A DNA stretch of 64,000 nt from assembly GCF_008087345.1 (NCBI RefSeq), contig NZ_VHIB01000001.1, forward strand, positions 186,001-250,000, in the 5' to 3' direction. Below the pieces are notes generated by a model. It had not been told where the DNA came from and did not search any database. It worked only from the letters and a program-made list of their open reading frames with translations. Position numbers and translations under genes: made by a program. The first letter of the stretch is position 1. The number at the start of each line of letters is the position of its first letter. Source of the DNA: Nocardioides caldifontis (lineage in GTDB: Bacteria > Actinomycetota > Actinomycetes > Propionibacteriales > Nocardioidaceae). Of the stretch, positions 3,781 to 58,086 are shown in pieces.

Positions 3781-3801
3781 CGCCACGAGGGGCGGCTCGA
3801 C
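3781..3801 (-). repeat. single copy of the 21-bp repeat (family 1)
   Basis: Reads CGCCACGAGGGGCGGCTCGA on the plus strand. This is the inverted form of the core that is arrayed at 15848-16190 and 56812-57108. It lies downstream of the importer operon (last stop at 3833) and upstream of the next minus-strand gene. Confidence 0.75.
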
Positions 3802-15847: not shown

Positions 15848-15933
15848 GTTGAGCCGCCCCTCGTGGCGTCCGTTCTGGTGTTGAGCCGCCCCTCGTGGCG
15901 CGCGTTGGGTGGGTTGAGCCGCCCCTCGTGGCG
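15848..15933 (+). repeat. 21-bp repeat array 1, left half (three forward copies)
   Basis: Three copies at 15848, 15880 and 15913 with a 32-33 bp period. The first 20 bases are GTTGAGCCGCCCCTCGTGGC. All three are identical over 21 bp and separated by unlike 11-12 bp spacers. Together with the inverted copies they fill most of the 371-bp gap between the convergent DinB and AAA genes. Confidence 0.92.
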
Positions 15934-15952
15934 TCCGGACGCGGCGGACCGA

Positions 15953-15981
15953 CGATTGGTGTCACCTGGTGACACCGATCG
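15953..15981. repeat. long dyad inside repeat array 1
   Basis: Two 14-nt arms (CGATTGGTGTCACC and GGTGACACCGATCG) around one T, with a single mismatched position. It lies between the forward and inverted repeat triplets. The rest of 15982-16105 holds nothing I recognise. Confidence 0.75.
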
Positions 15982-16105
15982 GCTGACTGCTTGCCCGTGA
16001 CCGGTCCGCCCTGTTCCGGATCGTTCAGGTGCGCGGACTTCGACGTCGTACGGCGCGGGTCGGGGCCGAAGTTCGTTCACCTGCAAGGGTCGGCCCGCCC
16101 ACGCG

Positions 16106-16190
16106 CGCCACGAAGGGCGGCTCAACGCGGAAGCGTGCGCCACGAGGGGCGGCTCAACGCAGAAGCGTGCGCCACGAAGGGCGGCTCGAC
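16106..16190 (-). repeat. 21-bp repeat array 1, right half (three inverted copies)
   Basis: Inverted copies at 16106, 16138 and 16170, exact 32-bp period, core CGCCACGAAGGGCGGCTCAA with G/A and A/G variants. The two 11-nt spacers are nearly identical (GCGGAAGCGTG and GCAGAAGCGTG). The last copy ends 5 bp before the AAA gene's stop. Confidence 0.92.
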
Positions 16191-50782: not shown

Positions 50783-50856
50783 GCCGGGCTTCTACCCAAC
50801 GCCGCCCCCACCGAGTCGTCGCATCTTCACGCGGGTTCACGCGTCTCCATGCAGAA

Positions 50857-56237: not shown

Positions 56238-56801
56238 GTGACCAACGCGCGCGAGGAAGCCGTCCGGCTCGTCAGGGAGAAGGGGTACGAGCGGCGCGAG
56301 GAGCCGTTCAAGCTCGCCAGCGGGGCGCTCAGCCATGACTACGTCGACGGGAAGTACGCCGTCGAGGACGGCCCGTCCCTGGCCGTCGTGTCCCGGGCGA
56401 TCGTCGAGATGCTCCGCGAGGAGGGGATCACCTTCACCGCGGTCGGCGGGTTGACGATGGGCGCGGACGCGTTCGCCGTCGGCGTGGCGATCGAGTCGGG
56501 GGCGAAGTGGTTCTCGGTCCGCAAGGAGCCCAAGGAGCGCGGCCGCGAGCAGGGCGTCGAGGGCGCGCGGCTCACCGCCGACGACACCGTGCTCCTCGTC
56601 GACGACGTGATCACCACGGGCGGCTCGACGAAGAAGGCCTACGACCGGGTCGTCGCCATCGGCGCCACCGTCGTCTGCGTGACCCCCTTCGTCGACCGCG
56701 GCGACACCGGCCGGGAGCTGTTCGAGGGGCTCGGCGTGACGTACCGCCCCCTCATGACCTACCGCGACCTCGGCATCGACCCCGTCGTCCCTCCCGCCTG
56801 A
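56238..56801 (+). CDS. pyrE: orotate phosphoribosyltransferase-like protein
   Basis: A 187-residue type I phosphoribosyltransferase that joins orotate and PRPP to make OMP in pyrimidine synthesis. The PRPP loop is VLLVDDVITTGGSTKKAYD. FKLASGALSHDYVDGKYA is a typical PyrE N-terminal block, and KWFSVRKEPKERGREQGVEGARL is the flexible catalytic loop. Other pyr genes are not adjacent. A leaderless GTG start is likely. The gene is convergent with the quinone oxidoreductase gene across repeat array 2. Confidence 0.85.
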   Translation: MTNAREEAVRLVREKGYERREEPFKLASGALSHDYVDGKYAVEDGPSLAVVSRAIVEMLREEGITFTAVGGLTMGADAFAVGVAIESGAKWFSVRKEPKERGREQGVEGARLTADDTVLLVDDVITTGGSTKKAYDRVVAIGATVVCVTPFVDRGDTGRELFEGLGVTYRPLMTYRDLGIDPVVPPA

Positions 56802-56811
56802 CGCTCATCCC

Positions 56812-56895
56812 GTCGAGCCGCCCCTCGTGGCGCGTCGGGAGCGTGTCGAGCCGCCCTTCGTGGCGCCCGAGCACGTTGAGCCGCCCTTCGTGGTG
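56812..56895 (+). repeat. 21-bp repeat array 2, left half (three forward copies)
   Basis: Copies at 56812, 56845 and 56875, period 33 then 30 bp. The first 20 bases of copy 1 are GTCGAGCCGCCCCTCGTGGC; the other two have CCCTTCG, and the third ends GTGGTG. They start 11 bp after pyrE and match array 1 in sequence and order. Confidence 0.92.
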
Positions 56896-56999
56896 GCGGC
56901 CGGGTAGGGGTGGGCGGCAGGCGTGGATGGGACTGCCCCCCGGAGCGACGAAGGACCGCAGGGGTGGTTGCCCGCACCGCGACCCCGGACGGCCGACGA

Positions 57000-57015
57000 C
57001 CGCCGCCAGCGGCGG
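57000..57015. repeat. short hairpin in the centre of array 2
   Basis: Perfect 7-bp CCGCCGC/GCGGCGG stem with a 2-nt loop. It lies between the forward and inverted repeats of array 2, the position taken by a longer dyad in array 1. The rest of 56896-57022 shows nothing I recognise. Confidence 0.6.
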
Positions 57016-57022
57016 CTCCCCT

Positions 57023-57108
57023 CACCACGAAGGGCGGCTCAACACCCACGACCCGCGCCACGAGGGACGGCTCAACACCAGACCCCTCACCACGAAGGGC
57101 GGCTCAAC
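57023..57108 (-). repeat. 21-bp repeat array 2, right half (three inverted copies)
   Basis: Inverted copies at 57023, 57056 and 57088, period 33 then 32 bp, core CACCACGAAGGGCGGCTCAA with minor variants (CGCCACGAGGGACGG in the middle). They end 12 bp before the quinone oxidoreductase stop. Confidence 0.92.
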
Positions 57109-57120
57109 ACACCAGACCGG

Positions 57121-58086
57121 TCAGAAGACGACGACCGACTTGCCGAGGGTCTTGCGGGCGTCCATGTCGGCGAGCACCGCGGTGATCTCGTCGACCGGCC
57201 GGACGGAGCCCAGCGGCGGGTTCACCGCTCCGGACTCGATCATCGGCACGAGCCGGTCCCACTGGGCGCGCATGAACCCGGGCCGGACCATGGCGTACGC
57301 ACCCCAACCCACGCCCCGCACGTCGATGTTGTTGAGCAGCAGCCGGTTGACCTTGACCTGCGGGATCGACCCGCCGGTGAACCCGATGACGAGCAGTCGG
57401 CCCAGCGGTCCCAGGCACCGCAGGTAGTCGGTCATCGCGTCCCCACCGACCACGTCGACGACGACGTCGACGCCCTTGCCGCCGGTCAGCTCCTTGACGG
57501 CGTCGCGGAACCCGTCGACGAGCACCGTCTCGTCGGCGCCGGCCTCCTTCGCGACGGCCGCCTTCTCCTCGGTCGAGACGACGCCGACGACCCGGGCGCC
57601 CATCCCCTTCGCGACCTGGATCGAGGCGGTGCCGACCCCGCCGGCGGCGCCGTTGACCAGCACCGTGTCACCGGGCTGCACGCCGGCCCGGGTGCCGAGG
57701 GCGAACTCCGCGGTCAGGTAGTTCATCGGCAGCGCCGCACCCTGCTCGAACGACGTCGAGGACGGGAGCGGAAAGACCGAGTCCTGGTGGACGGCGACGA
57801 GCTCCGCGCCCCCGCCGTACGGCAGGACGCACGCGACGTGGTCGCCGGAGGAGAAGCCGGAGCCTTCCGGCGCGGACCGGACGGTCCCGGCGAAGTCGAC
57901 GCCGAGCTGGAACGGGAGCGCGGGCTTGAGCTGGTACTCCCCCTTGGTCTGCAGCAGGTCCGGCCAGCTGACGCCCAAGGCCCGGACCTCGACGAGCACG
58001 TCCTCGGGGCCGGGGGTGGGCTCCGGGGCGTCGGCGACGGAGACGGCGGCGGGGCCGTCGAGGGCGGTGACCTGGACCGAGCGCAT
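57121..58086 (-). CDS. quinone oxidoreductase-like zinc-free alcohol dehydrogenase
   Basis: A 321-residue MDR-family enzyme. GroES-like start (SVADAPEPTPGPEDVLVEVRALGVSWPDLL), then LGVDFAGTVRSAPEGSGFSSGDHVACV. The nucleotide fold carries VLVNGAAGGVGTASIQVAKGMGARVVGVV (AAGGVG motif). Zinc-ligand residues of classical alcohol dehydrogenases are missing, as expected for quinone oxidoreductases that use NADPH. The physiological substrate is unknown. It lies 30 bp downstream of the small gene at 58117 on the same strand. Confidence 0.88.
   Translation of the reverse strand: MRSVQVTALDGPAAVSVADAPEPTPGPEDVLVEVRALGVSWPDLLQTKGEYQLKPALPFQLGVDFAGTVRSAPEGSGFSSGDHVACVLPYGGGAELVAVHQDSVFPLPSSTSFEQGAALPMNYLTAEFALGTRAGVQPGDTVLVNGAAGGVGTASIQVAKGMGARVVGVVSTEEKAAVAKEAGADETVLVDGFRDAVKELTGGKGVDVVVDVVGGDAMTDYLRCLGPLGRLLVIGFTGGSIPQVKVNRLLLNNIDVRGVGWGAYAMVRPGFMRAQWDRLVPMIESGAVNPPLGSVRPVDEITAVLADMDARKTLGKSVVVF

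Follow-up and report, generated by a model that had tools for sequence, protein, structure and literature searches.

The region at 56812–57108 of the window, as we call the whole 64,000-nucleotide stretch of DNA analysed here, lies between two convergent genes and is composed of two arrays of the same short repeat that face each other across a loop. The pyrE-like gene ends at 56801 and the zinc-binding dehydrogenase gene at 57121, with 10 nt between the stop of the former and the first forward core, and 12 nt between the outermost inverted core and the end of the latter. The repeat also forms a second facing pair (array 1) elsewhere in the window. The relevant features are as follows:

3783–3801, minus strand: lone core of the window repeat, from a core match
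15848–15931, plus strand: forward half of array 1, three cores, from core matches
16108–16190, minus strand: inverted half of array 1, three cores, from core matches
50813–50831 (G000:C1:236813-236831), plus strand: lone copy, with one mismatch, of the genome's second repeat, GAGTCGTCGCATCTTCACG
56238–56801, plus strand: pyrE-like phosphoribosyltransferase gene (ORF, PF00156), 5' of the forward array
56812–56893, plus strand: forward half of array 2, cores at 56812–56830, 56845–56863 and 56875–56893, from core matches
56894–57024, plus strand: loop between the halves of array 2, a copy of a dispersed hairpin element (model region 56907–56985)
57025–57108, minus strand: inverted half of array 2, cores at 57025–57043, 57058–57076 and 57090–57108, from core matches
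57121–58086, minus strand: quinone oxidoreductase-like gene of the zinc-binding dehydrogenase family (ORF; PF00107, PF13602, PF08240)

Core matching combined with the open reading frames confirmed the three forward and three inverted copies that an earlier note had described between convergent genes at this site. The forward starts (56812, 56845, 56875) were reproduced exactly, whereas the inverted cores begin at 57025, 57058 and 57090, the positions given before (57023, 57056, 57088) taking in two flanking bases. The cores of array 2 are spelled GTYGAGCCGCCCYTCGTGG, with GCCGTCCC in one copy, and are spaced 33 and 30 bp apart in the forward half and 33 and 32 bp in the inverted half. Among the variants said to appear in both arrays, CCCCTCG and CCCTTCG do so, whereas GTGGTG is found in array 2 only, array 1 carrying GTGGCG in 6/6 copies. 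The window contains 13 core matches (≤3 mismatches) compared with 0.04 expected from shuffles, and these fall in three places, the two 3+3 loci and the lone copy. The argument against chance expansion holds, as does that for a recurring layout. The predicted fold of the array 2 locus is −197 kcal/mol over 340 nt. No terminator-like site (hairpin then T-run) was identified in 56500–57400, no Rfam family matched at gathering score in the window or in seven array-bearing loci, and blastn of the window's gap against plasmids and phages gave no match.

The 131-bp loop of array 2 is a copy of a separate dispersed element with four near-full copies in the genome, all four of which are located between facing window-type arrays. 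Its ~50-nt core, GTGGATGGGACTGGCC...GGAGCGACGAAGGAGCG...TGGTTG, was found in 22 of 120 Nocardioidaceae genomes, including this one, with 1–8 copies each that at times form close pairs. In the loci analysed for this element (window 56894–57024, L156–L161 and L171–L174), its outer stems vary yet stay complementary, 15 of the 21 predicted pairs having changed on both sides in at least one of 12 sequences. No Rfam family corresponds to the element; the sole match up to E 5 in 11 loci (in L161) falls elsewhere. In three congeners the element lies inside an open reading frame that, judging by the encoded residues, we take to be fbiC. Other hairpin-like motifs are common to several gaps between facing arrays, window 15932–16107 included, for example GGTGTCACCTGGTGACACC and CAGGTGCGCGGACTTCGAC ... 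GAAGTTCGTTCACCTG.

Named best hits of a single protein place the host in Nocardioidaceae. Across its 4.8-Mb genome, the 23-mer GTTGAGCCGCCCYTCGTGGCGCG gave 275 matches (≤3 mismatches), a figure that counts core copies rather than arrays, and its reversed control gave 0. Each of 340 other Nocardioidaceae genomes contained 0–3 matches (1–3 in 64 of them), with control columns likewise at 0–3. The tandem core pair occurs 63 times in this genome compared with 0/57 relatives; it was absent from viral contigs and from a wider genome-contig collection that perhaps does not include this genome, and no window-type core was found in G003, of the same genus. The repeat unit consists of a ~20-bp core and a loose ~12-nt spacer; for neighbours less than 80 bp apart, the spacing is 32 or 33 in 87/102 pairs. 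A sample covering 16% of the genome contains arrays of 1–7 units, a count that omits single copies lacking an exact core. Arrays are mostly positioned behind gene stops with the head of the core (GTTGAG) facing the gene, and in five arrays located at distance −2 from the stop of the gene, the stop codon is accordingly the TGA within GTTGA.

Such a species-restricted burst, 275 copies here compared with 0–3 in each of 340 relatives, would be consistent with a mobile or self-amplifying repeat, similar to REPs or MIRUs, that has no host function, is tolerated behind gene ends, where it disturbs no promoter, and is oriented by an insertion or amplification bias. According to the excerpts available of the respective sources, MIRUs are apparently mobile (PMC12548453), and in the convergent gaps of two species most REPs sit no more than 20 bp from a gene 3' end (PMC3733652). 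We consider this reading quite possible, although the lack of the tandem core pair in viral contigs and of any plasmid or phage match to the window's gap by blastn argues against it.

The distribution of copies was examined in an unselected contiguous 400 kb, where we identified 63 copies of the window repeat (≤1 mismatch), 48 intergenic and 15 within called genes. Although convergent gaps account for 6.0 of the 38.0 kb of gap DNA, they hold 39 of the 48 intergenic copies; 10 of the 64 convergent gaps are occupied. Genes were called with a custom codon-usage caller rather than a standard one, and the codon model of this genome was also applied to the relatives' 32-bp-repeat loci described below. 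For counts per locus we used 65 loci, comprising those in the 400 kb and those in 20 stretches (L061–L080) that, like 20 stretches of G002, were picked for holding arrays and are uninformative on frequency. Thirty-seven of these loci were counted as intergenic; the other 28, the second locus of the window among them, contain a called gene or touch a stretch edge and were omitted. Placement between convergent genes is not a general rule, since 14/37 intergenic loci are codirectional and 3/37 divergent. The mobile-repeat reading agrees with the copies in divergent gaps and with those within called genes (in frame in one case). At G000:C1:132386-132500, four window-repeat units with an exact 33-bp period lie in frame within a called 602-codon reading frame, where they encode VEPPLVASEKA-type repeats at residues 445, 456, 467 and 478.

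The proposal that these loci represent a defined 3+3 element did not survive the wider sample. Eighteen cleanly paired loci, including some of the 28 omitted from the intergenic count, display ten copy-number combinations (1+1, 2+1, 2+2, 3+1, 3+2, 3+3, 3+4, 4+2, 5+1 and 5+3). The 3+3 layout was identified only at the two window loci, of which array 1 was counted, the second being merged with a chance match inside pyrE. Because arrays range from 1 to 7 units, pair in ten ways and have one orientation in 10/20 intergenic convergent loci, 3+3 is not preferred, and the copy-number counts at the sampled loci rule it out as a favoured form.

These counts also bear on whether selection acts on a facing pair as a single long inverted repeat (the structural element of the earlier note), in which the hairpin of a read-through RNA terminates transcription or is cut. 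Two exact dimers, each with 19-bp arms around a CGCG loop (C3:247153-247194 and C10:33056-33097; fold −42 kcal/mol) and the predicted fold of the window locus are in line with this idea, as is the interpretation of Neisseria '+-' uptake-sequence pairs as terminators, with motifs in tail-to-tail gaps, in the accessible part of PMC1852404. We nevertheless consider it unlikely: half of the intergenic convergent loci carry the repeat on one strand only, plus and minus copy numbers show no significant correlation (rho 0.39, p 0.11), facing copies are 4 to 259 bp apart, single arrays fold near shuffles, and the locus contains no terminator-like site.

Arrays of similar organisation were found with other sequences. 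The genome has a second repeat, CGCCGAGYCGTCGCATCTTCACG, with a period of 32 (TRF, 400 kb), present in 124 copies (≤2 mismatches) compared with 2 in the control; its facing order is '+-' 3 to 0. In L066 (15133–15314 and 15650–15768), a forward array of the second repeat faces an inverted window-repeat array, as if the two were interchangeable. A 22-bp unit, GCGAAGCGTCRCTCSTGTACGCG, characterises G002, a genome of the same genus: 63 matches were counted there and zero in each of the four further genomes searched. Across 26 loci of this repeat most arrays begin 5–30 nt past the stop, the spacing is 22 in 91/94 cases, and the order is '+-' 6 to 0. The tandem pattern CGAGTCGKCGC-N15-30-CGAGTCGKCGC was detected in 24/159 family genomes, including this one, with at least three matches in 18/159 and up to 134 matches, compared with 1 match in total for the reversed control. 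In five genomes the corresponding 32-bp unit features a constant half, CCGAGTCGGCGC (GTCGTCGC in this genome), a species-specific 9-mer (ATCTGCAGA, TCGTTGACG, TTGTGCACG, AAAGAGGCA or ATCTTCACG) and a loose spacer. Based on 83 units of exactly 43 letters from these genomes, with repeated rows mostly omitted, the 9-mer carries 1.4–1.8 bits per position and the spacer 0.5–0.9. Twenty-eight loci of the relatives' 32-bp repeat (two places being present twice) gave facing arrays in '+-' order 14 to 0, and by rough gene calls the forward array starts 0–4 nt past the called stop in nine of them.

The sequence relationships among these repeats were compared by shuffling, using 10 hand-picked unit spellings. 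The G002 unit is significantly similar to the CCGAGTCGGCGC family (5/4000 shuffles as good). Homology of the window core with this family is not established, as 514/4000 shuffles of the T form and 116/4000 of the C form scored as well. G003 has only three intergenic tandem arrays in 200 kb (TRF). A sampled 100 kb of G225 (L312–L316) contains three intergenic tandem arrays of a 26-bp unit, GCCGAGGGGTCGCGCGCTG..., which suggest another spelling with a different period. In the literature searched, constant-half strings included, we found no description of such gene-end arrays. The patchy occurrence of related repeats across the family is a further point in favour of a mobile repeat.

Orientation proved far more regular than copy number. 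Over the four repeat sets, facing pairs are '+-' in 44 cases and '-+' in 1, or 43 to 1 with the duplicate locus L336/L359 counted once; for the window repeat alone, '+' precedes '-' in 21/22 adjacent pairs, the sole reversed pair likely coming from L077 ('-++--'). Of the arbitrary copy numbers and orientations that the earlier note had named as speaking against its proposal, the former were thus observed and the latter were not ('+ then -' in 43/44). In codirectional gaps, one-orientation arrays of the window repeat are sense in 7 cases and antisense in 1. The corresponding ratios are 6 to 1 for the G002 repeat (L261 and L268, with a called gene inside, being omitted), 5 to 2 for the relatives' 32-bp repeat and 2 to 2, without sense bias, for the second repeat of this genome; pooled, 20 are sense and 6 antisense (20/26, p 0.009). 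All 39/39 copies in convergent gaps are sense, which is true by definition because such a copy is always sense to one flanking gene; this figure was dropped as evidence in favour of the order and codirectional tests. We conclude with high confidence that the window repeat is a lineage-specific, polar tandem repeat of gene ends, and that the family contains further repeats of this kind that differ in sequence.

Cores diverge several-fold less than spacers. At the next period downstream, the sequence following 154 near-perfect units has 0–3 mismatches in 95 cases, 8–12 (near random) in 59 and 4–7 in none. In 47 unit triples, for which only spacers lying between two units were used, divergence is 17% between consecutive spacers and 4.1% at strict core positions. 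Spacers are less than 10% different in 25/47 triples, so that recent tandem duplication accounts for part of the core identity; this near-identity of neighbouring units and the variable copy number also fit a mobile repeat. Spacers from different arrays differ by 45%. Where spacers within a triple diverge by 25% or more (15/47 triples, mean 41%), the cores differ by 6.3%. The contrast of 6.3% with 41% in these older triples, along with the 43 to 1 order, is left unexplained by a mobile repeat alone.

Across 48 arrays, folding compared with shuffles gave a mean z of −1.0 in sense and −0.9 in antisense. A small hairpin can be formed by 98/155 single units; in this putative stem, pair 5-13 is G-T in 180/192 units and pair 2-16 varies without compensation. 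Weak folding and the lack of covariation led us to reject the unit as an RNA hairpin. Because arrays barely fold beyond shuffles and the putative stem shows no compensation, we think that the core is read as sequence, either by a host factor or by the machinery of a mobile repeat.

The genes that carry arrays include, by names we assigned from sequence, what are presumably rpoC, rplA, rplI and secA. Sixteen of 42 array-bearing gene ends, picked as recognisable or long, were traced in four congeners, where hairpins of 14–18 pairs were found behind rpoC (3/3), rplI (4/4) and rplA (2/3). These hairpin terminators of the genus resemble the arrays in their location behind gene ends; unlike them, the array units fold little. 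In this genome a hairpin lies between the stop and the array at rpoC, rplA and rplI, which would make the array redundant as a terminator there, and the array as a simple terminator replacement was rejected for these three genes on this basis. A hairpin score of at least 30 between stop and array was observed in 6/10 ends with 40–480 nt at this position. Reading by eye a segment that is syntenic between this genome and G003, apart from one additional called gene here, we found that hairpins follow the two flanking genes in G003 and arrays follow them in this genome; a G003 hairpin there is some 16–20 nt behind the stop, and one of the arrays starts 11 nt past the stop with no hairpin before it.

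Tandem repeats were identified within 90 nt of 7/32 orthologues of array-bearing ends compared with 8/275 background ends (p 0.0002), and of 5/32 compared with 6/275 at a higher score cut; their sequences and periods are other than those of the window repeat. This enrichment at orthologous ends is suggestive only, because a stricter detector had given 1/41 compared with 3/275 and the looser one was tried afterwards. Orthologues below 60% identity were omitted from both tests, and G004 (9 ends, no background) from the looser one as well.

The location of arrays between convergent genes and behind rpoC, rplA and rplI would also suit a supercoil sink, with gyrase or a nucleoid protein recruited by the arrays downstream of active operons. 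Such a role has been proposed for E. coli REPs, which are targeted by gyrase according to the excerpted text of PMC3733652. By arithmetic, periods of 32–33 or 22 bp approximate whole helical turns. The 26-bp period of the three G225 arrays, putatively of the same kind, counts against this, and a conserved enzyme would not be expected to go with species-specific spellings; we regard this explanation as improbable, slightly more so than selection for a long inverted repeat.

Comparison with known repeat systems, as far as the excerpts of the cited sources describe them, identified partial likeness only. REP/BIME elements of the GTAG and CGTC superfamilies share with the window repeat many short intergenic copies, a location at gene 3' ends and in convergent gaps, and a set pair orientation. 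However, REP units are palindromic (PMC3733652), whereas the window unit folds little (z about −1 on both strands) and is arranged head-to-tail, mostly at 32–33 bp. GTAG types accompany transposase genes and CGTC types occur without them (PMC3733652). The Y1/RAYT transposase (PF01797) was found in 0/5 genomes of the genus, this one and four congeners, with control genomes positive in 5/14 cases; we rejected a RAYT/REP identity on this ground, and the result also argues against a mobile repeat. Mycobacterial MIRUs are likewise actinobacterial, lineage-restricted tandem units at gene borders, and MIRU-bearing gaps are longer than those of relatives, which we count as a likeness to the arrays here. 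MIRU units, however, are 40–100 bp in length and insert at start codons with a coupled ORF (PMC12548453, PMC2734929). The arrays described here have periods of 32–33 or 22 bp and lie behind stops, mostly in convergent gaps, and the 39/48 intergenic copies between convergent genes have no start codon ahead.

The uptake sequences of Neisseria and Pasteurellaceae resemble the window repeat in being short motifs with a '+-' order in tail-to-tail gaps. In the available portion of PMC1852404 they are about 9–11 nt in length, generally number 1,000 or more copies, and when paired within about 10 nt form hairpins with T-tails. The window repeat differs in its ~20-bp core, its 275 copies, its direct tandem arrays and the distance of 4–259 bp between facing copies. 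DNA uptake sequences with species dialects would account for a species-specific spelling beside a common half and, given the tail-to-tail placement in the excerpts of PMC1852404, for the location; tandem arrays behind genes, in hundreds of copies where uptake sequences generally number 1,000 or more, make this reading very improbable.

As our tentative main reading, we hypothesise that the arrays may be bound by a sequence-specific factor that influences transcription as it exits the gene. The conserved core would be a putative recognition site for a DNA- or nascent-RNA-binding factor, which would act with polarity on transcription from the adjacent gene, either in termination or in insulating mostly convergent neighbours from each other. 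Species-specific spelling would then track the divergence of the factor, and copy number would be set by tandem duplication and loss, with no fixed meaning. On sequence evidence, the polarity of facing pairs, the sense excess in codirectional gaps, the convergent-gap placement, the constraint on the core, the recurrence of such arrays, the anatomy of their unit, the presence of genes such as rpoC among those with arrays and the enrichment at orthologue ends speak for this possible function. The occupation of only 10/64 convergent gaps, the 15/63 copies in genes, the patchy family distribution, the result for G003, the hairpins preceding arrays at rpoC, rplA and rplI, the lack of sense bias in the second repeat, the share of core identity due to recent duplication and the detector dependence of the orthologue enrichment count against it. 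We consider the factor-site reading and a mobile repeat without host function about equally likely. A broader proposal is rather doubtful: a Nocardioidaceae-wide, undescribed gene-end system, in which polar arrays built from constant and 'dialect' half-sites would be recognised by a fast-evolving dedicated factor and provide a one-way polymerase stop or insulation for each gene end. The window array would then represent a far-diverged dialect beside a second one.

If polarity and dialects are functional, these arrays would represent a signal of a new type, read as sequence where bacterial genes end and recording the coevolution of a factor and its sites, and would offer a testable route to how high-GC bacteria separate convergent genes. 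If they are selfish, their order is unusual for such a repeat, and a mechanism for the orientation bias is required. In both cases, the constant half provides a handle for annotating hundreds of arrays.
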